Translations under genes and position numbers: made by a program | Shown here: in pieces, positions 27,251 to 63,306 of the stretch | How positions within the stretch are numbered: position 1 is the stretch's first letter | Layout of the letters: each line of letters opens with the position of its first letter | The notes under the pieces: model-generated | Told to the model about the DNA's origin: nothing | Databases searched by the model: none | The model's input: the letters and a program-made list of their open reading frames with translations, nothing else | Origin: Branchiostoma floridae | Lineage: Eukaryota > Chordata > Leptocardii > Amphioxiformes > Branchiostomatidae | NCBI RefSeq assembly: GCF_000003815.2 | Contig: NC_049980.1 | Coordinates: 20,347,916-20,411,915 of the forward strand | Direction of reading: 5' to 3' | DNA: 64,000 nucleotides

Positions 27251-27306
27251 ATGGGAGAGTTACTGCTCAAGGATTTCCTGCTCAAAGACGGACTTTATCT
27301 GAAAAG
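27251..27306 (+). CDS. MYC: Myc 5' exon with in-frame ATG (N-terminal extension)
   Basis: ATG at 27251 directly follows an in-frame TGA. Eighteen codons and two bases run to the consensus donor GTAAGC (27307). Joined to exon 2 they add [18 protein letters not shown] plus two Ser before the canonical Met. The exon may begin at 27234 after the strong acceptor TTGCTTTTCTGTCAG, with GTAAGT at 26843 as a possible partner donor; otherwise it is one long first exon. The -3 base is T at both ATGs, so context does not decide which start is used. Confidence 0.6.
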
Positions 27307-30300
27307 GTAAGCGGACTGGGACTCGGTCAGGGTGTGGGGGCAGTTCAGCCGGCGAATGAGTCATGTTCTTACCGTTGCTGTACCGGCATTTTACCGATAC
27401 TTCGACACTGTCACTTCTTACAAAAGCTAGTTGTGGTAACACTGTGCTTACGGTTCTTAATTCAGTGCTTTATCAACTGCCACATCCAGGTATGACGATT
27501 AAAGGCGTTAAATGTAGTCTCTTTTACTATTCCAGCTCCATGCCGGGAATTAATGCACATCACGCGGTTACCGTACCGAGCTCCAAGCACTACGACTTCG
27601 AGTCCTTACAGCCGTACTTCTACGAGGAGACAGATGATCCTGCCCGGGAGGATGACTTCTACTCCACACCGAGCCCGTCCGTACCGCCCTCCGAGGACAT
27701 CTGGAAGAAGTTCGAGTTGTTGCCGACACCGCCTCGGTCGCCCTCGCACCCTGCCCCGAAGTCTTTCATTCCCACGGTCGCCGAGAAGCTGGAGATGGTC
27801 TCGGAGCTGCTCGACGAAGACGCGGTGAACCAGAGCTTCATTTTCCCACTGGACACGCAATCTTTGAAGTCGAAGCTCATCCAAGATTGCATGTGGAGTG
27901 GGTACACCAACGAGGAGAAGGTGGAGAAGGCAGCCCAGGCACAAGAGGCGACCCCGCCGCCCATGGATTACACCAGCACCGACTGCGTGGATCCCATGGC
28001 CGTGTTCCCCTACCCGCTCAGCGAGACAACACCGAAAGAGAACCCCCAACGTCTCGGTACACAGACCCCGTCCGACTCAGGTAGGCATAGAGTTTGTGTA
28101 TTGGTCCCAGTCTATGTTACATTATAAAATTGGCGTGCATGATAGTTCACATAGTAAACTGTGAAGGTATGATACCATAGTGAAAATGTCTCATGTTTTT
28201 TGTACACTTCGCTTTCATCATGGTAACTGTAGCCACAGTCATATACCTACTAGTACCATTTTATAACCACACCGGCCAGGTGAATAATTTTGTTACTGCA
28301 ATTCATAGCGTAAAGCTCAGATCCATGCGTACCCTACGCATGGTTCCTCTTCCGGGTGGCTTCTTCATACAAAGGGAGATTTCTTGGTTTTGTGCCAGAA
28401 TTGTGTAGCGCCGGCTATGTCGTACTTGTTTCACTCGAAAATCAGATTCCTACACCTGTTACAAATCTGTTATCCTTAAAACCAACATGCGTTAATTGTT
28501 TGATTAATCTAAGCATAATTTTATTATCACGGGCTTTCCATATTTTATCGTATCCCCGAAAGTCCCTGCCAGACAGAGGGTAAACCCTGGGCGCCCAGCC
28601 GAGACAATTACCCCCGCTGGCCCCTTCTCGCATTCCCTTTGTCCCCTTCGCCAAATCCCAAAAGACTTGGATTGTGACAGGGGCTAGGCTTTTTCATCGT
28701 CAGAATTCAGTCGGGTTGGCATAATTAGGTCTAGCTTTAATGTCTCAAAATTGATAATATTCCAGAAAGAAATTTACATACATTTCCTAATGCCGGTAGA
28801 GGGGCGCAGTAGGGGGATTGCAGATATGCAGAGGGAAGTGGTGCGAAGTGCCGACGCAGAACAAAGACTAGCGCAGTAACTTCAAGGAGAATCGAAAGTG
28901 TAATTTTAGAGCTTCTTTTAATTGCCTTTTTCCTGTTCCTCGACACTACGCAGTTGCAGTTCTTGCTGCTAGTTAGTTCCTAATTTCCGTGTTTCTTTTA
29001 CCAAGCCGCCCTCACAAACCCAGAGCTAGTCTTCCTGCTTTCAATTTCCCAGCTGTAGGTCCCAAATTTTGGTGATTCAAAGGAAATGTCACTTTCAAAA
29101 GCGTCGGTAGGGGGCAAATGGTGGCACAGGTTCAAATAATAAACGGGGAATGACGGTTATTCAAAGCTATTAAAACTGTAAAATAATTGTAAGTTGTCAC
29201 ATGTCGCTTTGAAGGCCCATATCATGTAGATATCATGATTTGTGAAACATGTATATACCCGAGATGAGTATGACCAATTCATTGCTGGGCTGATAGAACT
29301 ATCACTTTTCCCCGCTATTCATCCCAGTTCACAACTGTTTGCGTTTAGCGCTTGTTGCTAACAAACTGCCGTCGCATTCTTTTGTGTGCCTACCTCGCAT
29401 ATATTGTGAATGGTCTATTTGGTGTCGCCTGGGTGAGAACTCATCCCCCACGCTGATCTTGTAGGGCAGGAATTTTTATGTGATTTTTATTTCTCCGCCC
29501 TTGTGAAGCGCCGGTCAAGCTTGTAGGAAGCCAGTTAGTGGCCACCCTCATTACATTTTGGATAATTCAATAGAATCTGTTGGAAAAGATTAGGGACATG
29601 AATTTTGAAGCAGATATTTGTTGGAGGGGGGGGGGGGTATATAACTGTTGCATAGTCCATCCAAGTTTGGTCAGGAAACTTAGAAGATTTAAGAAATAAA
29701 AGGAACTTCTGCTCCAGATCAACTTGGAGATAGAAAGTGTGTGTGGGAAAACACATGATTAATGAGCTGTGACCCACTTCCATGTGAGAGTGCCAAATGG
29801 GATCATATGTGACCCATACCATCCAGTGTAATAGGATATGTACAGACATGTTTCATTGGGTGTTACATCTATTAAAGCCATTTTCATGTATTTTGTTTTA
29901 CAGAAGAGGAAATTGATGTTGTGACGGTGGAAAAGATGCATCCAAAGAGGAGGATAAGCAGTGCTGTAGTCCATCACAACTACTGTGCCACCCTGCCGGT
30001 CAAGCGCTCCAGATCATCCACACCTAGCAGCAGTCCACAGCACAGCCCATCTCTTGTTAAGCGACTTAAGTCGGTCAACGTTAGCGAGTTGAAGGCCGCT
30101 ATCCAGCCGTACGTCAGAAAAAGCTCCTCAAATCCTGGAAGTCGAGCCAACAGTCGCCCATGTAGTCGCCCCAGCAGTGCTCCCACTAGTGATTCTGAGG
30201 ACAGTGAGTCAAAGCGTTCAACACACAACATCTTGGAGAGAAAGCGACGCAATGACCTGAAGGCAAGTTTCATCACACTGAGGGATAGCGTACCAGAATT

Positions 30301-30472
30301 GAAGGACAATGAGCGCGCACCAAAGGTCAATATCTTGAGAAAGGCTACGGACTATATCCAGTCACTAGATAAGGAGATGAAGAAACTAAATCGGGAAAAA
30401 GATGCCGAACAGAAGAGGCAGCAACACCTGTTACAACGACTTCAGACTCTGCAGAAACTCTGCAGACAATGA
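27251..30472 (+). CDS. MYC: Myc transcription factor (complete coding sequence, three exons)
   Basis: Exons 27251-27306, 27536-28080 and 29904-30472. From the ATG at 27540, which matches the canonical vertebrate start, the product is 369 residues; from the in-frame ATG in the 5' exon it is 389. Domains by 369-residue numbering: MYC box 0 at 18-28 ([11 protein letters not shown]); box I at 58-69 with the Thr63/Ser67 phosphodegron ([10 protein letters not shown]); box II at 113-131 ([15 protein letters not shown]); box IIIa at 147-161 ([15 protein letters not shown]); box IIIb at 181-191 ([11 protein letters not shown]); a basic nuclear-localisation region near 213-236; bHLH at 284-336 with the His288, Glu292, Arg296 E-box contacts; and a leucine zipper to 366. 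Family knowledge: it dimerises with MAX, binds CACGTG and drives growth and ribosome biogenesis. Human MYC is 439 residues and MYCL 364. It is the only Myc gene in the window. Confidence 0.97.
27536..28080 (+). CDS. MYC: Myc exon 2 (transactivation region)
   Basis: The acceptor follows TCTCTTTTACTATTCCAG. The canonical ATG is at 27540, four bases into the exon, as in vertebrate MYC. It encodes boxes 0, I, II and IIIa. The donor is GTAGGC at 28081; the exon ends in phase 1. It is clearly richer in G+C than the flanking DNA. Confidence 0.95.
28081..29903 (+). other. Myc intron 2
   Basis: GT-AG intron of 1823 bases ending TTTTGTTTTACAG. It contains a run of about a dozen G (29625-29637). No gene, repeat element or conserved motif stands out. 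Confidence 0.9.
29904..30472 (+). CDS. MYC: Myc exon 3 (MBIIIb, NLS, bHLH-zipper)
   Basis: Phase 1 entry restores Glu at the junction (DSEEEIDVV). The exon carries the WDR5-binding type box [11 protein letters not shown], a Ser-rich linker, VKRLK, the basic region [11 protein letters not shown], helix-loop-helix and zipper, and ends in TGA at 30470-30472. The exon boundary before EEIDVV is the same as in vertebrate MYC genes. Confidence 0.97.
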
Positions 30473-30969
30473 CACTGAAACTCGAAAAAGACATTTGAAA
30501 GATTTATGTTAGTGGCTTTACACCTGTGTAAAGGTGTATGGTTGGAACTGAATGACAGAACTTTTGCTTCAGATTATTCCGGTTACTTTTGTTGTCAGAA
30601 GAGAAAAGGGATGAAAACAGTTGTGGTTTGCAGGAATGAGAAACTGCATATTGGTCACAAAGTGAAACTGGTGAACCAGTGAAAAAATCGTTTGTAAATA
30701 ATATTTTGGTTGTCCTTGTGTTAGCTGTACAGCTAGTGGCCAGGAGGGCCACACTAAGTTCCCTTGTACATTTTGTAACTTGACATTAAGGTTTATATAG
30801 TTTACTTAAGTGCTTGAAGACTAAAATATTCTATATTTTCAGTTCTATTCTTGAGAGTTGAAGAAAAGCAGCCATTTTGATATGTTGTAACACCAATCAT
30901 GCTACGATTGACAAGTAAAGCTTGCACATGATTTTGTATTCTTGGTACTTCAGAGATGAATTTTTGTAC

Positions 30970-30975
30970 AATAAA
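30970..30975 (+). terminator. Poly(A) signal of Myc (AATAAA)
   Basis: Canonical hexamer about 500 bases after the stop, followed by a GT-rich stretch (TGTGAGCTTGTGGT from 31000). This is the expected end of a roughly 520-base 3' UTR. Confidence 0.75.
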
Positions 30976-31909
30976 CAACAAAAACGTTTACTATCCCTTG
31001 TGAGCTTGTGGTCTTTACAATACGAGCCAACGGATGGACTCATTTAGATAGGCTGTTCTGAATCAGAAGTTTCTTGAGCGGAATGCAGGAAGTGGTTTTG
31101 TTGTTCCCTGTGGGCTTTGTGCAGATGTAAGGTCATTCATTCTGAAGTCTTTGGTTACACTTCATTTGCATAAAGCCCGCGAAACTGGTGAATAGTTGCC
31201 CCGCCCACATTGTCTAATGGTATGTGGGTCAATGCAGGGAACGCCTCGGGCGACTGGTCAACAGAATTTATTGTGGTGTCAATCGGTAGATTTTTCTCGT
31301 TTATCTCAGTGACGTTATTCAGTTTTTTGATTGGCCATGCATAGAGACTAGTACTCGCAAACTAAAACATTAAGCTTCTTAGTTATATCCTGAATTTCTA
31401 TTTACGTAAGAATCAATGCAGTTGCAATAGCAATTGATTAGCAAAGGAACGTAGGACATGGTCTCGTGAGTCGTAGGGAGAATGTTTTATTGCAACCTCT
31501 TTGATTACAGACGTGTAGGATCCATAGCACCCCCTGCTGAAGGCCTCTTTTCCCTCTGTTCACACCCCAACCGCCGTGCCCATATATGGAAGAAAGCCCG
31601 CGAAAATCCAGCATGGGTGATTTCGCAATCAGTTTACCTCAGGGAACGCTTAGGACGGGCTCTGTTTGTGAATGAGCCGTCTGTATGAATAGGCTGGGTT
31701 ACACTAGAGTGTGCTGAGGGCCGAAGGTGTGTACCTGCCGAACAAAGGTCGAAATCCCAACGGGATTTTACTGGTTTTTACTGTCGACAAATAGGGTGCT
31801 GGTGATAGTGGGAAGATATATCGATCAATGTCCGGGGTTGGGACAGTTGGATAAACATGCGTACCGACACGTGTTCCCGTTTCACGTTGGCCGTAACGTT
31901 ATATAGTGT

Positions 31910-32105
31910 TACTCTCCAAGCAGAGGTTAGGCCCCTGCTGTTTTTTTTAAAACTTTTTTTAGTCGTTTTTATCGGGCTTTCTGTTTTCTATTTTATCTTG
32001 CTGTGTCAAAACCTAACTGGCTGGCGTACAAGAAAAATTACAAAATAGAAAGCCCGATAAAACGACTAAAAAAACAGCCGGAGCCTAACCTCTGCTTGGA
32101 GAGTA
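31910..32105. mobile_element. Foldback MITE, Mutator-like family, copy 3
   Basis: Same termini and arms as the others. Flanking 9-mers are ATATAGTGT and ATTAAGTGT (7 of 9), suggesting an older insertion. It lies about 0.9 kb beyond the Myc poly(A) signal. Confidence 0.88.
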
Positions 32106-32495
32106 ATTAAGTGTAGCAGCGCACAGTGGTGGCAACGTTTGTGTTTCATTTCTGTACATTTTCTATACATTTTAAACTCAATATCGCACTTGTTTTCCAA
32201 CAGTGCTTCCTTGGCCCAAAGTGTGCTAGTAATATTGTAGAGCTTCCTTCGAATCCTTGACCGTGGGAAGAAATCCCGGCCACAACTATTTTCTCCGTCA
32301 GTAACAATATGGGTTGTATGATTCTAAATGCTAATGTTAAAGAAACTCATATGGGTAATTTGGGTACATTGTCAAACTCATGTGGGCTCCCACTATCGCT
32401 GGCAATTCCCTGTGCTGCATTGTTAAATTGTCGAATGTGTCCGTATTTCTGCAATACACGGGTTACGTGTGGAAATGCACAAAGGAGCGTATTGA

Positions 32496-32569
32496 TACTC
32501 TCCAAGCAGAGGTTGAATCGTGCAGATATAATAAGTAGCAGTCGGAAAAATTACACTCTTCGCCCGTAC
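32496..32569. mobile_element. Possible internally deleted relative of the foldback MITE
   Basis: Starts TACTCTCCAAGCAGAGGTTG. The word CGTATTGA lies just before it and again at about 32570. The right terminus is not recognisable, so this is tentative. Confidence 0.35.
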
Positions 32570-33648
32570 GTATTGATAGTGGCAGGGCTTCCACAGAAAA
32601 AAATATTAGCACAGTACTGATTGTACTAACAACCAATTGAGAGCTCGTTGCTTTCTCTTCCTTCAGTGCTGAGAATATATAGACCACCCGTCAAGTTCAT
32701 AGGCGCACACAAGGGAATTTTGAACGGGATCGGTTTGATCAATTTACGGCGCTCAAAAGGCCAGCTATAAAGACGGGCTGACAGAAATATCTAGTCATAA
32801 ATAATGTCGTCATCAGAAACTTCGGACAACCATCAACCGTTCCATTCTTTATGACTGGCCAACTCTTCCGGGAAATAAGTACTAGTATATGGACAATTTC
32901 TCAAGTCAAGTAGAGTGCAAAATCTGGAAACCCCAGCCAGGTAGGGACTGTAGAAATCAGTACAGTTTGGGCTGCTCTTCTCGTGTTTTTCTGCCACCAA
33001 AAGGATACTTTTGAAGGGTCGAAGTACGAGGGTACCCTCGTACCTTGTGAAATGTACCTCTGTTCAAACATCGCTAGTTGTCAACGTTTGGCAGCGGACG
33101 GACACAGTGGACATATGTACTCTTCCATTGATTCATTCAACCTTCTTGATTCATTTGATCAACGACAGTGCTAGACCTGGTGTTACGCAAGGGTGTCACC
33201 ACTTTTGTAATCTTTACACCAGAACACAGTACCCTGGATATCGTATGATGCAACATGTGAGGTAGGCGTGGCTCGAATCTTAAGGTGTCATCATACAACC
33301 TCCTTGCATCATACAAAGGGGGTGTGGCTAAGTATGTTTGTCTTTCTGGTAACACTTTGTACGAAGTCGATTGCTCGAACAAAGCATTTCGGTTTTCAGT
33401 AAACAAAGGATGAGAAAATTGGGTCACTTACAGAACACCTCCATGACTAGACTAGCCCTGTCACTCTCATAACCACTAAATGAAAAGAGCCAAAGGACTA
33501 TTCTTCTTCTAGAAATATCTATTACGTCAAGGGTTTAGGGTCAAACCTTATAAAACCCACAGTATGAAAACATTTGTTGCAGATTATCTGAAGTGGAATA
33601 CAAACGACCCTGTTTCACGGTTTGTAACAATTTACAGTCTTTTCTCAG

Positions 33649-33822
33649 AAGTATAATGTGTTACCAGACTGTCCCTTGAGGGACGGGGAAGTGCGGACAG
33701 CCAGCAGGGGCCCGGACGTACGGGATGACACGGCCGACAATGGAGAGATGGGATCGCCACGGGAGGGCGAGTACCGTGGGATCGCCCTGGTCGCCAGCAC
33801 ATCAATTGAACATCCCAAGGAG
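33649..33822 (+). CDS. Orphan exon-like segment, unknown protein
   Basis: A 174-base open stretch (58 codons, phase 0 at both ends) between a good acceptor (TACAGTCTTTTCTCAG) and a donor GTAGAT. Codons are G/C-rich at third positions and differ from the AT-rich surroundings. It includes KYNVLPDCPLRDGEVRTASR and EYRGIALVASTSIEHPKE. Read through, it stops at 33853. I do not recognise it and found no partner exons between Myc and TRIT1. It may be an exon of an unrecognised gene or a captured fragment. Confidence 0.3.
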
Positions 33823-34224
33823 GTAGATATACTACTTAAGGGCCCAAGGAGATGAACATGGATGTCATTCTATTATCATATACTAATAGGGTAAAGTGAT
33901 AGTATGGCGAACATAATTCAGCCCTTTTGCAAAGTGTGTAACCATTATTATCATCATTATTCAAGCATTTCGCCCAATGAACAAGGAGGATAAAAAGGAC
34001 AAGTGGTCAGGACTTGTATGTTCCATATGTATCCATAGGTTGTTTCGGACGGACGTCCGGACGGGCGGCGCGGTCAGTAGTGTCAAATCAAATATCAAAC
34101 TCCCTTCTCAGCGTCCTCACATTCCTACGTAATCCCCCAGGGTTTACCCAGTTCAGTCCGGTTCGTGAAAATGTCCGGAAACTGGGCCATAGAGCTTGCG
34201 AATGATGACTTTGACATGTACCTT

Positions 34225-34353
34225 GCCTCCAAGCAGATATGATATCCGACGTTACTAGTGTTTTTGCTGCATTATTGCGGCCCGTCCCGGGTGATCAGAA
34301 GAAATACCTGAAGAAGAAGCAGCAGCTCCGACTTCAACCTCTGCTTGGCGAGA
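34225..34353. mobile_element. Short foldback element with CCAAGCAGA ends
   Basis: Begins CCTCCAAGCAGATATGATAT and ends CTCTGCTTGGCGAG, an inverted pair of the terminal word used by the other foldback elements. Only the outer 12-15 bases pair well. Confidence 0.45.
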
Positions 34354-34549
34354 TCGAGTTGTCAGTTGATGGTGGCAGGCCGGGGTTCATTTTTCATTTT
34401 TCTCAGTCACAGCGATAAAGTAGAATCAGTGCCGTATTCGGTGTCATTGTATTTAGATATTCCGTCTTTGTAGCCGGAAAATTCCTTAAAAAAAAGAAGA
34501 AGACTATTGAAGGTGAAGGAATTCTTGCCGTGTGGCCTTACACCACCCT

Positions 34550-34580
34550 ACTGGGGTCATACTGGGGTCATACTGGGGTC
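34550..34580. repeat. TACTGGGGTCA x3 tandem repeat
   Basis: Three near-exact 11-base units. Confidence 0.9.
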
Positions 34581-35278
34581 AGCGTCCTGTCAGACACTGC
34601 GGCTGTGAATCCGTCTCTCTGCGCTAACCCTATCTTCAACCTTTGGGTCAGAGGAGCGGCGGTGTAATTTTGCCGACTACTACTATATCTACGCGACTCA
34701 ACGTCCTCTGCTTGGAGAGTAGCAATCTCCACTAAATTGGACCTGCAGAAAGATTACTGGAGCAGAGGCAGATTGCTAGCCGGCTTGACATTGCTAACTC
34801 CAGTACAGATAAAGAACCACGAGTCGACACATCCATATCGCACGTCCACATGACCACCGCATGCTGTATTTGACCTATCAGACATACTATTTCAGCTGCT
34901 GGCTCCCTCAACGATCATGACCTTGCTTTTTCACGACGTAACACTTGCTAATTTTAAACCACATTGCCATGGCACAAGTCTGTCCGACCTCCAGGGCTGG
35001 AAGCCCAGCCACATTCCAGGAGTCCCTTGCGTTGTTCGCCGTCTGGTTTATGGTACCCTGGGTAGGTTAGGGTGAACTTTTCTCTCCCGGCCGGGGGAAT
35101 CCGGGGGGATCCCCAGCTGTAGGATGACGAAATCACTTCGGAGCTAGACTAGACTAGTTAGCTCACATTTGAAAGTTAGCAGAATCCAACGCTATCAGGC
35201 CGAGGGTGCTGTAGTATTGCAACTTGCAAGCATAGAGTTTCATACGATATGCTCGTATACGAACAGGATATATGATTT

Positions 35279-35766
35279 TGTATTCTCCAATCTGAGGTTT
35301 CGGTTTTAGATGTGGCCGCGATTTTTACGTCAAGCTATTTCCACAATGGAGAAAATCATTCCATATAATCTTAACCTGGGTACCATCCGATTGCTACCGG
35401 GGCTACTTACAATCGCCTAAAAAGGGTAGCGAGTGTAAGGAGCCCCGGTAGAAATCGGATGGTACCCAGGCTAATATAATCTTGTAAAGCATTGGAATTG
35501 TCCTATGGATTTTGAGGTTCAACGGTGGTTGTGCCAATTTTACTTTGCATTTGTGCTCATCAGAGGATCTTGCTGTAAACATTTAGAAATTTAACAAATG
35601 CATTGAGACTAGGAGTAGAAATGTGGTTTTTAGATAGTACCCCGAAACTCGTGAACTCGACACAGACGTACTTATCATTATTGTTTGAGAACGAACCGCC
35701 CCTTCTCGAAAGATCAAAGTCAGGCACCGGTTCATGGTATTGGTCCCTCAGCCATCGCGCGGTGTC
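35279..35766. repeat. Duplicated module A, copy 1 (contains a foldback insertion)
   Basis: Matches 36641-37011 from TATTCTCCAATCT to CCATCGCGCGGTGTC, apart from the insertion at 35374-35472 and small indels. Direct orientation, 1.36 kb apart. Confidence 0.85.
35374..35472. mobile_element. Foldback MITE of the TACCGGGGCTCC type
   Basis: Inverted arms CCTGGGTACCATCCGATT...CTACCGGGGCT and complement, about 98 bases in all. ATATAATCTT occurs on both sides, and the uninterrupted sequence is present in the other copy of module A (near 36739), which serves as an empty site. Confidence 0.85.
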
Positions 35767-35811
35767 GCCAATTATAGCCCCATTCCCAGACGTCTGGGGA
35801 TCACCGGGTCA

Positions 35812-36605
35812 CGACCTCCGCGCGACCTTACAGGAGGTTAAAGAGATTTGCCTCACCTCTAAATACTTCAGAGGGGCTGAAGGGACGAGCATCGAGGAGC
35901 TACTTAAAATTGCGATGAAATAAAATAGATTGATCACTTATAACAATGACAATGACAATGTCAATTTGTGAAATCAAGGACGTTTGGTCGAACATCATGG
36001 CCCCATCATATATTGTGCATGGAATGATGGATAACGTATAGTACTCTCTCTATGTACGTACACCGCCTATTTGCATTCTATACATGGCGTGCATTTCACG
36101 TTTATAACTATATGTACCTAAAGTTACAAGTTGGTACCCTTGTATAAATGTGCGGATTGCCATGCTTTGACAACTATGCATCAACAGTCCTGAAGTGATG
36201 TATTCCCACATTCACAAAAGCCGGACATGAACCAACCTCAAAATCAAACTCATTACAAAACTTTCAGTGTCTCAAATAAGATTTATAGAAGGGCATTGTT
36301 CTTGTTTAAAAATAGTTTGAGGATACCATATTGTCGCAAGGACATTTAGATTTATGTTGGGCGCCTCAAGCACAAACGCACTGCAATTCAAGTTTTGTAG
36401 CTGCTGGCTCATTGCCATATCGAAAGCAGGTGTTTCCCCGCTGGTCTGGGGGAAGACCACACCTGTGCAGCTGCATGGCACACCTGATTACTCGCCAGGT
36501 ACAGCGAGGCTGTGTCAGGCAACCTTTATTTAATGCCACATCGTGTTTGGAAACACACAATAATGGGTAGGGCACAACCGTCAGGTCACGGGCAGAGTAC
36601 CTGTA
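35812..36605. repeat. Duplicated module Y, copy 1
   Basis: Matches 40128-40890 over most of its length, with indels. Near its left end a frame reads EVKEICLTSKYFRGAEGTS and then ends ELLKIAMK-stop, preceded by CTTACAG, which could be an acceptor. The stop overlaps an AATAAA hexamer. I do not recognise the peptide. Confidence 0.8.
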
Positions 36606-36640
36606 CCTTCGGCCTGAGAGCGTTGGATTCTGCTGGCCTA

Positions 36641-37011
36641 TGATTTTTTTTTGGTTGTATTCTCCAATCTCAGGTTTCGGTTTTAGATGTGGACGCGATT
36701 TTTACGTCAAGCTCCCTCCACAATGGAGAATAACTTTCCATATATAATCTTATAAAGCATTGGAATTGTCCTATAGATTTTGAGGTTGTGGTTGTGCCAA
36801 TTTTTACTTTGCATTTGTGCTCATCAGAGGATCTTGCTGTAAACATTCAGAAATTTAACAAATTGAGACTAGGAGTAGAATGGTGGTTTTAGTACCCCGA
36901 AACTCTTGAACTCGATACAGACCTATTACGAACCACTCCTTCTCTGAAGATCAAAGTCAGGCACCGGTTCATGGGTTCATGGTATTGGTCCCTCAGCCAT
37001 CGCGCGGTGTC
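36641..37011. repeat. Duplicated module A, copy 2 (empty site)
   Basis: Direct repeat of 35279-35766 lacking the foldback insertion. It abuts module Z copy 1 exactly at its right end. Confidence 0.85.
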
Positions 37012-37193
37012 TTATTCAGTCACGTGATCCGCCCCATAGCAACTAACTGGCCGCCATAGCAACGAGCGAAATCGGCCATCTTGGGGTGCAGTTTTGAGTA
37101 GCGCCCAAAGCAGCTCTCCGTAAAAATTGTAAATAGTTCCGAATCAATGCACAATTTCCCTTCAAACCTTTAGTTTCGTGATCACGGTGTTTT
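37012..37193. repeat. Duplicated module Z, copy 1
   Basis: Starts TTATTCAGTCACGTGATCC and ends near TTTCGTGATCACGGTGTTTT; partner at 38423-38608. It contains CACGTGA, two CATAGCAAC (RFX half-site-like) words and GGCCATCTTGG (YY1-like), so it resembles promoter DNA. Confidence 0.75.
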
Positions 37194-38085: not shown

Positions 38086-38216
38086 CACTCGTAGGACACC
38101 TTGTGCGCATAGCCCACCACCACGGCTTTAAATATCCCTCCCGGATTGGAGACGTGTGCAAATTTTTGCACACGGCACGCTGACCTTCTGCTTCCAAGAT
38201 GGCGGAATGCCTCACA
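38086..38216 (-). CDS. Unassigned exon-like segment on the minus strand
   Basis: One frame stays open up to the consensus donor GTAAGT (38085-38080) and reads, in part, FAHVSNPGGIFKAVVVGYAH followed by KVSYEW. The upstream boundary is uncertain: the possible acceptor near 38217 lacks a pyrimidine tract, and CCGCCATCTTGG near 38200 is a YY1-like promoter word instead. It lies between the two module Z copies, so a decayed transposon gene is possible. I do not recognise the protein. Confidence 0.25.
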
Positions 38217-40127: not shown

Positions 40128-40890
40128 GCCTCACGACCTCCCGTGAGACCTTACAGGAGGTTAAAGAGATTTGCCTCACCTCTAAATACTTCAGAGGGGC
40201 TGAAGGGACGAGCATCGAGGAGCTACTTAAAATTCCGATGAAATAAAATAGATTGATCACGTGAACGTTGAAGGAACACTTAAAACAATGTCAATTTGTG
40301 AACTCAAGGACTTTTGGTCGAACATCATTTATTACTACGATATCTTTACACGCACACCGCATATTTGCATTCTATACATGACGTGAAGTGTACGTTTGTA
40401 ACTACCTGCATGTTGGTACACTTGCATAAATGTACGGATTGATGTAAACAAGTTTTGACGACTACATGTAACGTTATCAACAGTCCTGAAGTGATGTATT
40501 GCCTTCCCACATTGCCAAAAGCCGGACATGAACCAACTTCAAAATCAAACTCACTACAAACCTTTCAGTGTCTCAAATAAGATTTAAAGAAGGACATTAG
40601 TTTGAGAATATCATATTGCTGCAATGACATTTAGATTTATTTTGGGCGCCGCAAGCACAAACGCACTGCAATTTGTTTTTGGCTTCTGGCTCATTGCCAT
40701 ATCGAAAGCAGGTGTTTCCCTGCTGGCCTGGGGGGAGACCACACCTGTGCAGCTGCATGGCACACCTGATTACTCGCCAGGTACAGCAAGGCTGTGTCAG
40801 GCAACCTTTATTTAATGTCACATCGTGTTTGGAAACACACAATAATGGGTGGGGCACAACCGTCAGGTCACGGGCAGAGTACCCGTACCT
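40128..40890. repeat. Duplicated module Y, copy 2
   Basis: Partner of 35812-36605. The conserved peptide end is the same except that Ala becomes Pro (ELLKIPMK-stop). Confidence 0.8.
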
Positions 40891-44654: not shown

Positions 44655-44795
44655 ATGGCAGCCAGCGTCCGCAAAGTCGCGACTCGCCTGCCCGTTGTAG
44701 TGATTCTAGGAGCTACTGGCGCCGGGAAATCCAAACTGGCCATAGATATTGGAACTAGGATGAACGGAGAAATCATCAGTGCAGATTCCATGCAG
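44655..44795 (+). CDS. TRIT1: TRIT1 exon 1
   Basis: 47 codons, phase 0, ending SADSMQ. It contains the P-loop. The donor is GTACGA at 44796. Confidence 0.95.
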
Positions 44796-53700: not shown

Positions 53701-56700
53701 TAGTTGGCCGAGGGAGTATGTTTGCGACCTAGCTAACTCCTCTGGCATGTTATCTGTATATATTTGTCCAATTTTATTTTCCCAGCGACCTGTGGAGCAC
53801 GGTGGGGGCTAAGAATTTCATACGAACCTCATACGGACTTGAATGTATACGCATGTGTGACCGCATCCTTCAGGTGCAGTCACACGAGCGTATATATCAA
53901 GTCCATATGAGGTCCGTATTGACATTTTTCTTCATATGATCATGTACCAGTCGTATGCACAATACACACCTCACCTCATACTTTTAGGTAAGCGTACTGG
54001 GCCGTGCTGAGCGTAAAACTGACACAACGATTGAGATGCGCGTGAGGGTTGTATTGACATGTTTTGTCTTGCCTTAGGTAAAGTTTGCAACTGAAGAAAT
54101 TTTTGTTTTGTTCTACCAGCTACACAATCGTGGGTAAAAAAAGTTTGAATTTCGTTCCTCGTGAACAAGCCAAACAATTTTTAATCCTCGCTTGATTATC
54201 GACAGAACATCGGGGGCAGTAATGGTGAAAATATCATTCACAGCTCAGGAGGCGATGTGCCGTGTTTTATGAAGAAGAAATAGAACAAGCTTGCTGACAT
54301 TTTCGTGTAACATGGTATACGTCTATGACATACCCTGTACCAGAAACCAACTTTCTCCCAAAAAATAAAAGAAAGCATGCACAAACTCCGCGGCAGGGCT
54401 ACTGTTGGTGGGCTGGTAGGAGAGTGGTTTAGTCAAGTTATTGAAAAGCCGGAGAACTGTAGGTAATATTGTTGAATAGAAACGGCGAGTAGGCCGTGTC
54501 CTGTGTTTATGGAACTCGCAGTTAGCACGGCAAACATCCAGTCTGTTTCTGAATTTAAAAAAAAGGCTTCTTTCCACGTACGAGTCCACCACGTGCACAC
54601 ACAGCCGTGTGGAGATCGAGCCGCTTATCATCCAACATGGCCGTTCGAACGTTCGAACGCGACTGTGACGTCATTGTGAAAACGATCTATACAGTATTTT
54701 GATTATGATGATATGGTCAAGCATTTGTCTGATTGATACTTTCCCGAGCCCTGAACGAGTTGCCAAGGTATTTTGATTCCGATTGAATCTATGTAATCCC
54801 AGCCTCTGTATGTGTACTCTTTTTACATCCCATGTTGAAGGTCGTGTGTTACGCTATGATTTGTAGGGAAAAATTTTAGTATGTTTGATTTCATACTTTT
54901 TAAAATTGTTCTGAATTTAGCCTCATTCTTTGGCACCACTTCTGAGTTTAGCTGAATTGTTGTTGTCGGGACACCCCATACAGGCCCCATAGTTGCCTGG
55001 ATACCCCATCACACTCTTGCAATGCCTGCTTGTTCTTTTGATGACTTGGCAGTATTGAAATCCCACTTGACATGACCCCTTTCGACAGGTGTATGAACAT
55101 TTCCTGAGTGATAGTAACCTATGAAACTCTAGTATGGGTCAGATCTTGTTTTACATTTAGGGAAAGTGGAATGGTCAGAGTTTAGAATGGACACTGTTAG
55201 ATCTATCCTACAAAACCTGTCTCAGTTCCACTTGTGGTGATACCCTGTTAAAGTAAACAGGAAAAGGATTTTTCTATGAACCTTTATCTATTTATTATGT
55301 GCATAAATTTGCATTCAATGATAGGTAGTATAACAAAGAGAGCTTCTGAGTGGGCTGATGACAAGGATAGATTACCAAGGGATATATGCATGGACATATA
55401 AGGCCATGTGAAGTCTGAAGCTCAGTGGCAAGTGTGATATCTCACAACAGATGTAGAGTTAGGGATGGGGTGCAACAGTGGTACATGTGCATCTCCCGTG
55501 TGGTCGGGGGAGAGTTTGCAGCTATCTGACTCCTTTTACAGCTGCATTCCTCAACCATGTATGGAAAAAATGGAAGACTGGTAGATGCAGAAGTGTTATG
55601 TGGAATTTTGCTGTACAGTTTAGTGTGATTTTTGTAGAAAGACTTGCAACCATCTGTTTTCCTCTGTGGTCCAAGGAGTGGCCAAGCAAAGTACAGTAGG
55701 CATCCTTCCATCTTTGCAGATGGAAGCAAAGATGGCCAAGCAAAGTACAGTGATTCTTAGATAAAAACACAACAGCTAGTAACTGATGACGGCTACAGTA
55801 GAGTGAAGCCTGCAATGTCCCCTAATTTGGTTGGAATACACTCTGACAACAGGTGTGGACAGTGTGGTGGGATCTGAAATGTGCTCTGAGAATATGAATT
55901 GAATTCAAATGATTTCAAAAGTTTAGTGTTTTTGCCTACCTCAATTTTTGTTTGAAAAGGATAAAGACTGGCCATGAGTTGGAAATTATTTGCAGTTTGA
56001 GCTTTTCCAAAAGATGTAGAAAATACACTGTAAAGAACTGTTTGTGCTTTAAGTTTCCAACTGCCCAAATCTATAGCAAGGGTAACGGTAAGAATGCAGT
56101 GATACATTTGAATGAATATGGGTATTGCCCTTTGGGTGTACCTGCAGAAAGTCAACAAACAAATTGGAGATAACAAATAACTTCCCTGGCTTCCTTTGTC
56201 TTTTTTGCCACAAGGTCAACTTAAGTAAGATCATGGTGAAATATTTTTCTTGAAGGCAAGTTGTAGCCCAAAGGCACATACTGCCATGCGACTGAAGTGT
56301 CACATTGGCCTTGCTTGGTCCCAGGTGTTCTCTTATCTGGTGGTGTTGATCACCCTGCTAATTCTCTCCTGCCATAAAAGGAGTTTTTGTGAGCTTTATC
56401 CTGTACTTTGGAGAAACAGCTGGTCATCCCTGGGGTTAGGACATCTGTGGACAGATTAATTCAGGGACAAACCTTACATGTACATGGAACCCCTACATAG
56501 CAACTCCCAAACCAAAATTGGGTATCAAGAAGGTAACTCATTTTTGTACATTAGCAAGGGGAGTTTGGACAAAGGTAGATTTTTTCAGTTTAATAGATTC
56601 GTTTGTAGTGACAGTCAAATCCTCTTTGTGACCACTTAATGGACTTGGAGACAAATCACCACAGACAAGAGGTTAAAGTCACTGCCACAGACCAGTGGTC

Positions 56701-59700
56701 TCCATCGACTTCCATGTTTGAGGGTTATGTAGTAGTGCATTCACAACATAGATTAAGATTGTGCCATTTTATGGTCATATATTTTTCAACCAAGTTATGA
56801 CAGTATTGACTTTTTCTGTCACAAGACAGCTGATGTCTGTGCACATCCACACCTGTGTATGTATGATGACAGGCTTGAGGGAGAACTTGACAGCGCCTCC
56901 TACAGGATATTCCCCAGCCTGGTACTGCAGTGTTTGCTCAGGGATTTGAGTGTTGTTCTACAATAGTCTAGAGCAGCAGGATGAATTTCTCACTTCCTTC
57001 TTGGAACTGGGAAAGAAGGAAATCGTTCTCTTGCCGCTGATGTATGAGTGGTTGTTGTGTTTGTACTCCCTCAAGCGGCAGTATAGCTGTGACATATTAA
57101 CTTCACCTTTATCTGAAGGGGTAACCTATATATGTTGTTAAGTTTTTAGGGATATAAAGTTGACGGTCGGCGGTTTCAAACTATAAGAAGATTTTGAAAA
57201 TATTATATAGATATCTTCTCCTGCAAGGTAGAATTTCTCCTCACTACAGAAAACAATGACAATGACAACAACAACAATTAAGGACAAATATTTATACTGC
57301 TAGGAGCTATAATGTTGCATTTTATCTTTAAAAATTATCTTATTTTAATGGTCCATCTTTCTAGATATAGATAGCCAAAGGGTAGGAAGTAGGGATTGGC
57401 CTAATATAACTTACATTTAGTTAACATAGACATAAACACAGACACAAACTACAACAGTACTGCAAACATAACATTTGGACAAGTGTTTTTACTCAGTGCA
57501 GGAAGTGACTACAGCAGGACTGTCTCCAGCTTTTCTGTCCCACTCATTGTTTTGGAGCCTATATGTTGGGATTTTGTTTTAGCTGGTGTGGTCTTTTTCT
57601 TCTTCCCTCTTTTTCTGCCAGTTTTTACTCATACACAATACTATATGGTGAGCCTAATGTTATAGTGTTGTGTGCGAGTACTGTAGCTTGACAAAAGGCT
57701 ATGGGGAAAACATTCTGCATTATCGCAAAAATGTTGCATTTGTAGTTGAATTGTATATTTCATGCTTGCAGAAATACATTGCAATCAATTTCATGTCATG
57801 AAGTTCAAATTGTTTATACAGCATAAACTTTCTGTCCTTCTCAATGGGCAAATTGGGATGGAGTTACAGCAATAAAGGTCCTGGAAATATCCTTGGAATA
57901 CAGTTGCATATAGTGATGTAGAATATTTTCTTGCACTTAATTGTCATCTTCAACCTGTTGTTCTTCTCCCTGTCAGGTGTACAAGGGACTAGACATCATT
58001 ACAAACAAGGTAACAGAGGAGGAACAGCGGGCATGTGTGCATCACGTGCTGGACGTTGTCAGCCCACTACGACGCTTTACCGTGGTGGACTTCAGAAACA
58101 GGGCGCTTCCCATCATATCCTTGTTCCATGTTTAAAACAGTCATCCCTACTTGTACATCACAAGAATACAATTTTTCCACTTTTTATTTGAGGACTTTAA
58201 CATAAATTTCATTCCCTCATTCACTAGAGAGAAAAAGCAGATATTTACTTCCATAAACAATGTCGAATTGTTGCTGACCTTGACCTTTTCACCTTGAAGA
58301 CATCCTGGACAGACAAAGACTGCCCATCATTGTTGGGGGAACCAACTATTACATTGAGTCTCTGCTGTGGAAGGTGCTCATCAGCCCACCGGTAGGTCAG
58401 TTGCCATATTCATGGGCATCAGAGAGGCTGATGTTCACCTTATGTTTGTCTTTGTTGGTTGTACCACATCTTGATATAGGGGAGATTGTTTTGCACATGC
58501 TTTTCGTAAGTTTTAAAGAAGAAAATCTAAAGCTCTAAAATAGGTGTGATTAATCAAGATGTCCATTTGTTCTCCCTGTGTTGGCATGGTAACCAGGAGG
58601 ATCAGGAGGAGAGCGGCCTGCTGTTTGACCGTGAGGATGCAGCAGATGAGATGATGACAGATGCAGACCTCCACTCCCAGCTGGCAGCAGTGGACCCTGC
58701 CATGGCTGATCGGCTCCACCCCAACGACAGGAGGAAAGTGGCCAGGTGAGGTAATGTGAGTGGTCCAAAACTTATTCTGTTTGAACAGCACCTTTAAGAG
58801 TAATGTATGTCCATGAAGAAAACTGATGGTGGACAGTGATGGTTCAGCCACCACTGCTGTTGCAGCCATCACAAGATGACCTTAACTTTTGTTTCAGTTA
58901 GTGCAAACATCCTTTATATTTGTAGCCTGAGTACCATCCTCCGTAGTGACCACTGGCTCAGTACCATCCTCCGTAGTGACCGCTGGCTCAGTGCACTAAC
59001 TGAAACAAAAGTTAAGGTCATCTTGTGATGGCTGCAATGCTATATCTGGCCCACAGCACAACTCTGGAACATGTTTTTGAATAGACATTTTGTTCAAATT
59101 GTTGTCAAAATTTTAGCAACTGTCAATCATCAAACCAATGGATAGGAATGGAAAAATCCAGACAAAAAAAACCCCTAATGTTTGATATTTCCTTGTTCTG
59201 CCTGTAGGAGTCTGCAGGTGTTCCAACAGACAGGTGTTCCCCACAGCACCCTTCTACAGGAACAGTCCATGCAGGAGGGGGGTGGGCCTCTGGGGGGGCC
59301 CCTCAGGTACACCAACACTTGCATCCTCTACCTCTCCTGCCGGCAGGAAGGTCAGTACTTTAAATTTGTTTCTTCCTTTCTGAAGAAAGATGAAATTAGG
59401 ATATAGATTATTTTGTTTAATCAAAGTTATCTATCTCTTATGTATTAATTTAAAACTCTGCCTGTTATTTTCAGTTTTAGATGAACGCCTTGACAAGCGT
59501 GTGTACACCATGTTGGAACAAGGCTTACTGGATGAGCTTGCTCATTTCCATTCGGAATACAACAAGGAGATAGTTGATGCAAACAGGTAGGACTTGTGGT
59601 TGGAGTAGTTGATTTTCGCATAGTAATTTGTGTTTTAGCCCATACAAACTCCTCTGGATGGATCTACGGAAATCCCACATTTGATGTGAGTGCATGTAGA

Positions 59701-62700
59701 AAAAGGAACAAAAGAAATTTTAAAAGACCACTCGACTTGTAACATCACTGTAACAATCACTGCCGACCACGTGCTACATCTGACTGTCTGTTGGTGACAC
59801 AAGGTGCTGGCTAGTGTTTGCCTGCGTGTGACCCACGTCCTGCCCTGACCAACAACACTGCCTCAGCACAAGTGTCATTAGGACAATGAGTTGACTACTT
59901 GATAGCTCACTTCCCCCACCCCAGACTACATTCAGTCGGCTGGGAAAAACACACACTGCAAGAAAAAAATCAATTCGCAGTGTTTAATTATACAATGGGA
60001 GGGGTGGGAAAGTCGTAATAACAGGCCTTGTATACTATTAGCAGCTGAAGAGGTTGACTCAGATTTTGTCAGCCAAAAATGTGCAGTAATCAATGGAGAA
60101 AATGTCATTTTAGCAGAATAAAGGTTTATGTCACTCATATTTGCAAGGTCTTTCAAAATTTGTGGGTTCTCAGTTTTACATTTTCCCTTGTATATATCTG
60201 TATTGGGTAAGGCCTCATGTTATCTAGAAGTAGAACATATTGTATGTACATTGTGACTGCACTCTAAACAGCACTGGTTCATAAGGTTTGTTGATTTATC
60301 TTCACAGCCACTTTAAATTTCATGTAAGGAGTTTTAAAGTACATTTTTATAGACTTGCGGATCATTTTGCAGTCCTTTGTGAAAGTGTTCTTGTTTCTTA
60401 CAGAAGCTAGTCATCCTGTTTAATGTGTCTCCTTGAATCTTTCATCACATCCTCTAAACTGTATCACTTCCACTGGAATCTTGAAGTGTCTGAGAGCACT
60501 TGAGTCGACATTCCACCTAACGACCATCTCTTAAGGCTGGCCCTTCAGATGTCTTCACATACTTCTCACAGCCTTCCTATTCAAAGTCCTGACAGTGCAT
60601 GTGTCAATATAAAGTCCAAGGGGAATGGGGACATGCAGGGACAGCCCCTTTGGAATACAATGTAGACATTAGTTAAAAGATATTCTTAGATGGAAGACAG
60701 GAACCTTCAGAATGTTTCTTGCCTATCATGTTTTGTAGATTTTGGTTTACAGTGTTTCTAGAATCTTGATTGTGTGCGACATCTACTATGGATGGATTTC
60801 CATGTACAAGCTTGTAGAATATTCAGTGTGTAAGAGAGAATTACCTCAACCATGGAGGTTATATACTCCTTGCCTTAACTGTAAAGCCTGTTATCCCAAC
60901 AGCAGGTCTTGTATTGTAAATATTTGTGTACAACTGGGAGACAAGTTGATACTAGTCCTTACCTGATGCAATGTCTCACAATTATCCTGATCCTAATCCT
61001 ATCCTAATCCTAATCCTGACTGATCCTTTCCCACCCCTGCAACTCCTGTACAGGACTGCTCTGGTTATAACTTATAGCGACACTTGACCTGGCAGGAGAA
61101 CGTTGTTTGTGAAGGGGAATCCCTTTTGTTATTGTTCGGCCTTTTTTCAGGCCTGTTTGAAGTTAATCCCCTGGGAGAGTCCTTTGTGTTGCTTCATGGT
61201 TTTGTTAACCTTCAAAGTAAAGCGACATTCTGCCGACAGAGTCCTGTATTGTTGGAGCATTGGTTTTACCTGTAATGGCGCAGTAGAAAGTTACACTACT
61301 GTATTGGTTGGGTGTTCCCTTAGTACTCAATAGGGCAGCCACTATACTCAAGTAGTGTATTGTTTGTCAAGAGTGGAGGGGTGGGGAATATGCTGTTTCT
61401 TGGAAAAGGGGGGACTAACAGGGTTCCCTTGGTATAATAATATAAGAAATTTATATGCAAAAGGAAACAGGAATTGTTGTATAATGTTCTGATGCAATTG
61501 TCATCTGAAAAAGAGACATAGTTTGTAACTTACAATATATTTCCACCATTAAGTGCAGTAGTGAGATTGGATTACCTTCACGGCATTTGTCTGTAACCCA
61601 ACATTGGAATCAACCCTACTTCAAACAGTAGAAGATGAAAAGGTCCACACCGACTTGTTCAATAACAGTTTTACATTGAAAAGCAAGGGAGAGGTTTGAT
61701 AACCCGATTAGATACTTCTCCTTTTTAAGTGCAAATTGATTCGCCGAATGAGTCTGGGATGGAACAAATTTCATGTTTCTTTTAGCCAGCATTGACCTTA
61801 CTCTTCTGTATTAAAGTTGTTGAGCCAGTACAATACTGGTAAGATTTAAAAACTTAATCAAGATAGAATGAATAAATACTTAACACTTTTCGGTATAGAA
61901 TGACCGATCATGCTCATCTGTTTCTATAGCCCTTGGGCCACACAGGCAACTACAGTAAGGGGCAATAGCTACATGGAGTTCACTATTAGTGGAGTGTGTT
62001 CAACTCCCATACTCTTTGTATGACATCTTTTGTTAGTGCTGAGTGCTAGAAGAGAAAGCAGTGTCCATTTCTTATTTGGTATGAACACCCTACACTCTGA
62101 ATGCAAGGTGAACACTAGGCTATTGCCCCTGAAGCACATTACAAGCATACAAGTTAAATTGGCCATTGTCTCATACCAATGTCTAGACCTACTTGTAACA
62201 TTTCCAAAGTAAAACATCACTATCTTTGGTTATAATTTTATGGTTATGATTATCAATGTCATATTTGCCATAATTCTGGTGTCAAGTACAGTATGGAGGT
62301 TCTCTCTCAACCGTCCTGTCAAATTAGAATTGCAAGGAGATATAGATAAATGCAAAGCTTCAGATTACTGTAGTTTTTTGGGCTGCAGCCATGTAACCCT
62401 TGCCCTATACTTGTAAGTATAACATGTGGTAGATGGCTTAGTGAAGTTAAGTAGATTACATATGGGTTAAGTTTCAGCTATGCCAGAGAGGGGTTGGTTT
62501 TGTTTCATTGTTGATACATTACAGTCCATGTTTTTGTAGGTGAGATTTTGACCCATAAACTTGTGGTCGTTTGTCTTAAGTGACAGAGAAAGGTTGTGGT
62601 GACATTGTAGCAGGTTTCAGTTCCTCCCAGTAGGGCTTTGTAGAAGTTTTCGGTTGAAACAAGTCGGTAGGCGGGCAGAAGACAGAACAAGCATTTTTGC

Positions 62701-63306
62701 AGAGGTTTCAAAAGGTGTACATAAGCAAGCATGGATTATGTAGATGTGCAAGTCATTTGCATAATTAAAATATGTGTGGAGAAACAATTTTTTTTACATA
62801 GTTTCAATCTGGGTCTTTCCTTTGTAGTAAGCTTTACTTTTGCTTGTTCCATCTGCCATGTTTGGAGTTTACTGTTGAAACAATGTTCGTAGAAAAGAGA
62901 TACAACGTTTGGATACCAGGCTATGGCAGTTGAACACTTGTATCCAACCAACTTGAAATTCAAACACAGTTATTATAAGTGTCATGAAGATAGCAGTGTA
63001 GAAAAGACAAATAGCAGCCTAGTGCTCATAGTACAAAATATATGTGGAAAAAGATTTAAAAAAAGACAATGACATGGTTATGTTTTAATGTCTTTCTCTG
63101 CGCCTTTTTCAGACAAGACTACACACGAGGTATTTTCCAGTCTATTGGATTTAAGGAGTTCCACAAGTACCTGTTGCTGGAGGAAGGACAGAGATCATCG
63201 GACATCGGTCAGCAGCTTCTGCAGGAGGGTGTCGCTGCGCTGAAGACGGTCACCCGACGCTACGCTCGCCGACAAATCAAATGGATCAGAAACAGATTTC
63301 TAAAAC
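44655..63306 (+). CDS. TRIT1: TRIT1, tRNA (adenosine-37) dimethylallyltransferase (seven exons, C-terminus off-window)
   Basis: Exons 44655-44795, 57977-58114, 58293-58391, 58597-58745, 59208-59350, 59475-59586 and 63113-63306 give 325 residues, collinear with human TRIT1 as I remember it. The P-loop is GATGAGKS (19-26); Asp44 in SADSMQVY is the expected catalytic Asp; [68 protein letters not shown] and [17 protein letters not shown] follow in order. Family knowledge: it transfers dimethylallyl from DMAPP to A37 of certain cytosolic and mitochondrial tRNAs. The Arg/Lys-containing N-terminus could be a mitochondrial signal. The ATG at 44655 has a strong context (A at -3, G at +4); a weaker in-frame ATG lies at 44601. 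The zinc-finger C-terminus, present in the human protein, would be beyond 64000. Confidence 0.96.
45398..45447. repeat. (ACTC)n microsatellite
   Basis: About ten CACT units with minor interruptions. Confidence 0.9.
45830..45875. repeat. 15-bp tandem repeat x3
   Basis: Unit TGGTTTAGATATACC, three nearly exact copies. Confidence 0.95.
46526..46677. mobile_element. Foldback MITE, Mutator-like family, copy 5 (diverged)
   Basis: Begins TACTTGCCAAGCAGAGGTTC and ends AACTTGGAGAGTA. The inner arms are diverged and shortened. Flanking 9-mers are AGTATTAGA and AGTATTATA (8 of 9). Confidence 0.85.
47333..47545. mobile_element. Foldback MITE, Mutator-like family, copy 6
   Basis: Full-length copy flanked by a perfect 9-bp duplication, ACAAGTATA (47324-47332 and 47546-47554). 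A TGTATG microsatellite begins in the right duplication. Confidence 0.93.
47550..47590. repeat. (GTGTAT)n microsatellite
   Basis: TATGTG units directly beside MITE copy 6. Confidence 0.9.
48933..49511. mobile_element. Foldback element with GCGCGTGAAAA subrepeats
   Basis: The left end (GGGTTTTCTTCGCGTG) and right end (CACGCGCACAAAACCCC) are inverted. Each arm contains several TTGCGCGTGAAAA units. Two internal copies of CCCTTGGGAAT...TAATTTGCATATT lie at about 49116 and 49417. No open frame. Confidence 0.65.
49528..49652. mobile_element. Foldback MITE, Mutator-like family, copy 7 (left arm truncated)
   Basis: Left terminus TACTCTCCAAGCAGAGTTAG, then an internal jump to GTTTTGACACAGCAAGATAA; the right arm is intact. 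Flanking 9-mers are TACATCACC and TACATAACC (8 of 9). Confidence 0.88.
50872..50902. repeat. (ATGT)n microsatellite
   Basis: Six or more TATG units. Confidence 0.9.
51050..51340. repeat. Dispersed element with inverted GGTATGACATAAA
   Basis: The left edge reads TTTATGTCATACCCACCTGA and the right edge CAGGTATGACATAAAAATGG, an inverted pair around 230 bases of higher G+C. Probably a repeat insertion; the enclosed open frame is discounted. Confidence 0.4.
51907..51955. repeat. GAACATAGAGATTTCG tandem repeat
   Basis: Two full units and a partial one, slightly diverged. Confidence 0.9.
52561..54687. mobile_element. 2.1 kb element with terminal inverted repeats in TRIT1 intron 1
   Basis: The left end GATCGTTTTCACA and the block GCCATGTTGGATGATAA (ending 52622) are mirrored at the right (TTATCATCCAACATGGC from 54625, TGTGAAAACGATC ending 54687). 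The element is flanked by TA on both sides. The segments between the mirrored blocks contain GTTCGAACG-type words and differ in length. No intact transposase was found. A minus-strand frame at 54323-54631 may be a remnant of mobile-element coding sequence. Confidence 0.65.
52851..52918. repeat. TTCGCGGT-rich dispersed repeat, second copy
   Basis: GTTCGCGGTGGTTTAGAGTT followed by CGCGGT and a complement block; related to 4009-4068. Confidence 0.5.
57977..58114 (+). CDS. TRIT1: TRIT1 exon 2
   Basis: 46 codons, phase 0 on both sides: [18 protein letters not shown] through FRNRALPI. It is followed by ATATCCTT rather than GT. Confidence 0.95.
58115..58292 (+). other. TRIT1 intron 2, U12-type AT-AC
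   Basis: The 5' end reads ATATCCTTG, the U12 AT-AC donor consensus. The 3' end is TTTTCAC, with CCTTGAC (58278-58284) as a branch-site match about nine bases upstream. Splicing AT to AC gives [13 protein letters not shown], the same length as the human protein here; no GT-AG choice keeps the frame. Length 178 bases. Confidence 0.88.
58293..58391 (+). CDS. TRIT1: TRIT1 exon 3
   Basis: 33 codons, [20 protein letters not shown] through KVLISPP. The donor is GTAGGT. Confidence 0.95.
58597..58745 (+). CDS. TRIT1: TRIT1 exon 4
   Basis: Acidic [18 protein letters not shown], then [20 protein letters not shown] and RKVA. The acceptor AACCAG is weak in pyrimidines but is the in-phase choice; a slightly different start is possible. 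The donor is GTGAGG. Confidence 0.88.
58860..59037. repeat. 46-bp perfect inverted repeat in TRIT1 intron 4
   Basis: Arms 58860-58905 and 58992-59037 (TTGCAGCCATCACAAGATGA... and complement) around an 86-base loop. The loop holds a 30-base tandem duplication (58931-58960 and 58961-58990; one mismatch). Confidence 0.97.
59208..59350 (+). CDS. TRIT1: TRIT1 exon 5
   Basis: [39 protein letters not shown]. The acceptor is CTGCCTGTAG and the donor GTCAGT. Phase 2 in, phase 1 out. Confidence 0.95.
59475..59586 (+). CDS. TRIT1: TRIT1 exon 6
   Basis: [20 protein letters not shown] through EIVDAN. The acceptor is TTATTTTCAG and the donor GTAGGA. Confidence 0.95.
59587..63112 (+). other. TRIT1 intron 6 (3.5 kb)
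   Basis: GT-AG intron ending GCGCCTTTTTCAG. It contains a (TCCTAA)n tract near 60984-61022. Nothing else is recognisable. Confidence 0.9.
60984..61022. repeat. (CCTAAT)n simple repeat
   Basis: Irregular ATCCTAATCCT units. Confidence 0.8.
63113..63306 (+). CDS. TRIT1: TRIT1 exon 7
   Basis: [20 protein letters not shown], then [20 protein letters not shown] and LK. It ends in phase 1 at a GTGAAT donor. No following exon is recognisable up to 64000. Confidence 0.93.

Follow-up and report, generated by a model that had tools for sequence, protein, structure and literature searches.

Adjacent Myc and TRIT1 genes in the amphioxus Branchiostoma floridae: a linkage that most likely predates the vertebrate genome duplications

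Based on exon-level analysis of a 64,000-nucleotide stretch of the Branchiostoma floridae genome (C2:20347916-20411915, hereafter the window) we confirmed that the genes for Myc and for the tRNA isopentenyltransferase TRIT1 are adjacent, Myc first and TRIT1 second, both on the + strand with a 14 kb spacer between them, and that each has one detected locus. Very probably the locus is a remnant of the Myc neighbourhood from before the vertebrate genome duplications, after which the vertebrate copies lost neighbours reciprocally. The linkage itself most likely predates those duplications, as the original prediction (made by a model from the sequence alone) had proposed, given that TRIT1 lies with MYCL in both human and chicken. 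Genome-wide searches covered an assembly whose 431 contigs total 513,431,437 bases, with C2 accounting for 35.1 Mb. Families were searched exon-wise and a score was given only to the best candidates, so counts are reported below as matches among the candidates scored. Coordinates are those of the window, also where they run beyond it, unless C2 is named, and publications are cited for the excerpts used here.

The Myc gene starts with a probably non-coding exon 1, which would span 27251-27306 (+), its start being taken from the original prediction and its donor AAAAG|GTAAGC lying at 27307. Exon 2 (27536-28080, +; acceptor TTCCAG|CTCCATG, donor TCAG|GTAGGC) holds the ATG at 27540 and the Myc boxes (MB) MB0, MBI, MBII and MBIIIa. 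The coding part of exon 3 (29904-30472, +; acceptor TTTTACAG|AAGAGG) encodes MBIIIb, an MBIV-like stretch and the basic helix-loop-helix leucine zipper (bHLHZ) up to the stop codon, and an AATAAA at 30970-30975 (+) is the likely polyadenylation signal. Joined at GT-AG splice sites, the coding exons 27540-28080 and 29904-30472 give a product of 369 amino acids that matched Pfam Myc_N (3.5e-47) and HLH (1e-15). Its nearest solved structures were bHLHZ chains of the Myc proto-oncogene (2.6e-21), with residues 281-367 aligned along the chain, and its N-terminal part aligned with solved-structure peptides of N-Myc (6.8e-10) and of a Myc degron (5.2e-05). The intron between exons 2 and 3 splits SDS|E, which we take to be where the human MYC intron lies too. 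All six motifs were placed by comparison with the letters of the human motifs, including the MBIIIa core at 27984-28019 (+). The protein has the features by which the Myc family is recognised, an N-terminal region with MBI and MBII and a C-terminal bHLHZ, and it fails the strict mark of MYCL, the absence of MBIIIa. Myc is a Max-partnered E-box regulator, and by analogy the amphioxus protein presumably works as its family does.

The original prediction spoke of a single Myc gene and named a second one, in a different neighbourhood, as a result that would overturn it. Such a gene was sought and none was detected genome-wide with either Myc_N or the exon-3 protein as query: Myc_N gave one match among five candidates scored, and the exon-3 protein gave five among 40, namely itself (7.9e-115) and four others with E values of 0.0015-0.0085 and 32-39% identity, as would be expected for other bHLH proteins.

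TRIT1 was read in seven exons within the window, all on the + strand: exon 1 at 44655-44795, with the ATG at 44655 and the P-loop GATGAGKS, followed by exons at 57977-58114, 58293-58391, 58597-58745, 59208-59350, 59475-59586 and 63113-63306. Together they encode 325 amino acids that matched Pfam IPPT (9e-68), with tRNA isopentenyltransferase 3eph as nearest solved structure (4.7e-49), and thus include the IPP transferase domain with P-loop by which TRIT1/MiaA proteins are recognised. The genome-wide search for IPP transferase gave two matches among five scored, both of them TRIT1's own exons (exons 2 and 7). The exons, Pfam matches and solved-structure relatives bear out the predicted order and shared strand of the two genes. 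TRIT1 is a tRNA i6A37 isopentenyltransferase, and the amphioxus protein presumably acts as its family does.

The gene runs past the end of the window. A codon-usage scan, trained on the Myc and TRIT1 exons of the same locus and run over the window with 100 kb flanks on both sides, listed 110 segments, among them a further TRIT1 exon at 83872-83984 (+) and the last exon with the stop codon at 84729-84901 (+). These two provide most of the C-terminus and by eye resemble the eukaryotic zinc-finger extension; as pieces they had no Pfam match. Because the zinc-finger cysteines are missing from the exons read, at least one more exon is expected between the two, and a motif search of both flanks for an exon with these cysteines found none. 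The introns are long, 13.2 kb for intron 1 and 20.6 kb (partly N) after exon 7, and 8.7% of intron 1 recurs within the surrounding 264 kb, the span over which all recurrence was assessed. Intron 2 (58115-58292, +) is probably of the U12-type AT-AC class by the U12 consensus, with donor ATATCCTT, a CCTTGAC branch-like box and the end TTTTCAC. Its junction was picked by eye and preserves the frame, and no GT-AG alternative preserving the frame was noticed by eye. TRIT1 was not found together with 'minor intron' in the open-access literature.

The claim that no supportable gene lies between Myc and TRIT1 holds only at the limited sensitivity used. In the spacer, about 199 stop-to-stop open reading frames (ORFs) of at least 40 amino acids were counted, the two counts made having used edges 10-40 bases apart. 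Comparing the 120 longest (at least 50 amino acids) with Pfam yielded four weak matches of one protein each, the best at E 0.0055. The codon-usage scan recovered both Myc exons but four of the seven TRIT1 exons of the window, and in the spacer it listed seven separate segments scoring 8.9-16.9, which overlaps the 9.3-20.0 of the listed TRIT1 exons. One repeat accounts, with two copies, for two of these segments, and the top-scoring segment (33673-33822) had no Pfam match. No gene in the spacer was supported by the 120-ORF set and the scan, but a small or novel one may still lie there, because the scores of spacer segments overlap those of the TRIT1 exons and the scan missed three of seven known TRIT1 exons. 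About 22% of the spacer recurs in the surroundings, which suits mobile-element debris.

A repeat encoding LQEVKEICLTSKYFRGAEGTSIEELLKI was observed in two copies, at 35809-35899 and 40131-40222 (+), inside longer repeated blocks of the spacer.

The wider amphioxus neighbourhood ties the locus to more than one of the vertebrate MYC regions. CYRI (FAM49), which was predicted beforehand, gave eight matches among nine scored. All of them fall at C2:20523100-20526968 (+), on the strand of Myc and about 148 kb away from it. The exons read by eye as CYRI through the C-terminus, and this was the sole CYRI locus detected genome-wide. The sole FAM110 gene detected (one genome match of two scored) lies at C2:20493671, 118 kb from Myc, at window-coordinates 145021-146067 (+; Pfam 3.4e-21). 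A stretch of about 151 kb thus contains the one locus detected for each of Myc, TRIT1, FAM110 and CYRI. Between TRIT1 and FAM110 lies a NOL10-like gene, named by eye, whose segments fall 35-39 kb past the end of TRIT1 and whose exons matched NUC153 (5.1e-12) and, under Pfam's cut-off, the NOL10 propeller (8.4e-06). NBAS gave two matches of three scored, both at C2 19.07 Mb, 1.3 Mb from Myc. In human, CYRIB presumably lies by MYC and CYRIA by MYCN, and we take NBAS to be beside MYCN and NOL10 to be at 2p25.1. With human CYRI positions assumed in this way, single amphioxus copies of genes that have human members on 1p, 2p and 8q are found in one place.

In vertebrates, the MYCL side of the comparison is published. 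In human 1p34, a single block of 106 kb contains TRIT1, MYCL1 and MFSD2A (PMC3155907, PMC2846890), an amplified interval of 0.09 Mb at 1p34.2 is listed with TRIT1 and MYCL1 as its genes (PMC3806277), and on chicken chromosome 23 HPCAL4, TRIT1 and MYCL occur together within 30 kb (PMC6062655). These excerpts uphold the predicted human neighbours. Their strand and order in human, both genes on the minus strand with TRIT1 downstream of MYCL, are as we assume them to be. The human FAM110A-D genes are placed at 20p13, 8q12.1, 2p25.3 and 1p36.11 (PMC6585022), and in the syndecan family, the classical family linked to myc, mouse syndecan-1, -2 and -3 are described as syntenic with three myc genes (PMC1464127). 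The amphioxus genome is described as being without large-scale duplication, and BFL2 as alternating CLGJ and CLGC, with CLGJ contributing to GGA2 (PMC7269912).

The adjacency in amphioxus, chicken and human makes descent the best explanation, and we infer both that the linkage shares its origin with MYCL-TRIT1 of human and chicken and that neighbours were lost reciprocally. In the chordate ancestor, TRIT1 would have followed a single Myc immediately downstream, both genes reading from one strand, and the chromosome would also have carried CYRI, FAM110 and others. Amphioxus, its genome unduplicated, would have retained the adjacent genes and had no more than a single copy of any of these genes. 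The region would have been copied in vertebrates, probably fourfold, with Myc persisting as MYC (8q24.21), MYCN (2p24.3) and MYCL (1p34.2). After copying, MYCL alone would have kept TRIT1 as a neighbour, MYC and MYCN alone would have kept CYRI (on the assumed positions), and FAM110 would have remained on all four copies. To our knowledge TRIT1 is single-copy in vertebrates, and if so at most one MYC locus can carry it. The pair, its orientation, the single detected loci and the nearby CYRI and FAM110 are what was observed, and since one locus holds both the partner of MYCL (TRIT1) and that of MYC and MYCN (CYRI), it matches an unduplicated ancestor followed by reciprocal loss. The CLGJ contribution to GGA2 also speaks for this reading, chicken MYC being, we assume, on that chromosome. 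The original prediction had called the locus MYCL-type. That part is not supported, as CYRI and FAM110 tie it to the MYC and MYCN regions too; the linkage rather resembles an ancestral one, with the set of neighbours kept differing from one vertebrate copy to the next.

Several observations weigh against an undivided ancestral neighbourhood. The ancestry rests on one invertebrate genome and two published vertebrate neighbourhoods, and local order beyond the Myc-TRIT1 pair is not conserved: further MYCL neighbours in conserved local order were not found. Upstream of Myc there are instead FKRP (FKRP_N 1.2e-23), a PMF1-like exon (Nnf1 2.4e-05) and a LIM-homeobox gene of Islet type (LIM 4.4e-16, homeodomain 3.9e-13; named by eye), none of which we take to be a human MYCL neighbour. 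Downstream of TRIT1 a JMJD7-like gene (Cupin_8 2.6e-43; named by eye) and a weak F-box match under the cut-off intervene. MFSD2A, HPCAL4 and other MYCL neighbours were not recognised by eye among the 110 codon-scan segments, MFSD2 and HPCAL4 not having been searched genome-wide. We presume PPT1 and CAP1 to be human MYCL-region genes, LRATD1 to flank MYCN and LRATD2 to flank MYC. PPT gave six matches of 11 scored, three at C2 13.90 Mb (6.5 Mb from Myc) and three on C8; CAP gave one of five, on C17; and of 25 LRAT family candidates scored, 20 matched, none of the 20 on C2. Only CYRI and NBAS, of the five families chosen from human neighbours for which results were obtained, lie less than 1.5 Mb from Myc, and FAM110 and NOL10 were picked up after the codon-usage scan rather than predicted. 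In addition, PMC6585022 argues, in the excerpt used, against whole-genome duplication as the origin of the Hsa1/2/8/20 paralogon. If C17 corresponds to BFL17, the CAP match could still be compatible with common ancestry, as BFL17 and BFL2 are described as sharing CLGJ ancestry (PMC7269912).

One account of why the pair persisted is a cis-regulatory hold, in which Myc enhancers spread over the 14 kb spacer and the long introns of TRIT1 would make breaks selectively disadvantageous, with TRIT1 as a bystander gene in a genomic regulatory block, where conserved non-coding elements in the bystander's introns would act on the target gene. We regard this as possible but less likely than not. It is compatible with an ancestral neighbourhood, for which it would supply an extra reason for persistence. 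The 13.2 kb and 20.6 kb introns, set against NOL10-like segments spanning only about 4.3 kb, speak for it, as does the lack of a recognised gene from the PMF1-like exon to Myc, a distance of about 55 kb (partly N) of which positions 1-27300 were covered by comparison of the 148 longest ORFs with Pfam and the rest by the weak codon scan only. However, the recurrent share of intron 1 and of the spacer indicates that long introns can also come from repeat insertion, and plain gene-order inertia accounts equally for long introns and a gene-poor upstream region. Its strong form would make TRIT1 an obligate bystander, with Myc control elements in its introns locking the pair since before the vertebrate duplications, the MYCL copy having inherited that control part and the MYC and MYCN copies the CYRI-side part; this we consider doubtful. 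There is no evidence that Myc and TRIT1 cooperate functionally.

That Myc and TRIT1 became neighbours twice, once in amphioxus and once in the lineage of MYCL, is very improbable. Gene order within amphioxus chromosomes is described as extensively rearranged (PMC7269912), which would give room for such an event, but two single loci in 513 Mb would have had to meet in the same order, with CYRI and FAM110 nearby. We estimate the chance very roughly, by mental arithmetic and uncorrected for the pair having been noticed first, at about 1 in 10^4 to 10^5, and the presumed common strand in human adds to the coincidence. Least credible of all is that amphioxus Myc is the orthologue of MYCL specifically and that TRIT1 adjoins it for that reason, since MBIIIa is present in amphioxus Myc and absent in MYCL, CYRI and FAM110 also connect the locus with the regions of MYC and MYCN, and amphioxus is described as unduplicated (PMC7269912).

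In the flanks, the FKRP pieces lie at about -33.2 to -32.1 kb (-), the first being the one with the FKRP_N match and the second recognised by eye only. The 148 longest (at least 56 amino acids) of about 362 ORFs of at least 40 amino acids at positions 1-27300 gave eight weak Pfam matches, one protein each, with a best E of 0.0057, which we regard as chance. An ORF of 147 amino acids at 4486-4926 (-) has a hydrophobic start, several N-glycosylation-like sites and no Pfam match, and is possibly part of a gene otherwise unknown, as one of its exons. An SLC16-like transporter was named in the flanks by eye; its pieces had no convincing Pfam match. Rfam at the gathering threshold gave 0 matches, and 0 tRNAs were found.

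Among the open-access papers listed, none reported the amphioxus Myc-TRIT1 pair by title, which does not imply its absence from print; in the open-access literature TRIT1 was never mentioned together with amphioxus, nor MYCL and TRIT1 together with synteny. The locus unites neighbours that are split in human between MYCL (TRIT1) and MYC and MYCN (CYRI, presumably), and as an outgroup it allows one to ask directly what control regions passed to the individual MYC oncogene copies. TRIT1-MYCL1 was reported as co-amplified in small cell lung cancer, in six tumours or lines (PMC3806277), and if the linkage is ancestral this co-amplification would follow from a very old adjacency. Present understanding is not overturned by the locus, an unexceptional if neat example of ancient microsynteny that fits the known vertebrate genome duplication.

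As in human 1p34.2 and chicken chromosome 23, a Myc-family gene lies beside TRIT1 in amphioxus, in the order and with the shared strand that we presume for human. The surroundings differ: the human block has MFSD2A and the chicken block HPCAL4, whereas amphioxus has FKRP and PMF1-like genes upstream and, unlike the human and chicken MYCL neighbourhood, JMJD7-like, NOL10-like, FAM110 and CYRI genes downstream of TRIT1. The original prediction had also paired the linkage with MBIIIa. The motif is indeed present in amphioxus Myc, but it has no demonstrated bearing on linkage; it corresponds to residues 188-199 of human c-Myc (PMC11558822), and MYCL is described as being without it (PMC8688507). 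In the human tetra-paralogon Hsa1/2/8/20, with its syndecan/matrilin/myc linkage, the FAM110 and Myc families are spread over these chromosomes, as vertebrate copies of what in amphioxus is a single unduplicated locus. The pair is also like ancient metazoan microsynteny pairs, and perhaps like genomic regulatory blocks as we understand the concept, in that unrelated neighbours have been kept together from amphioxus to vertebrates.

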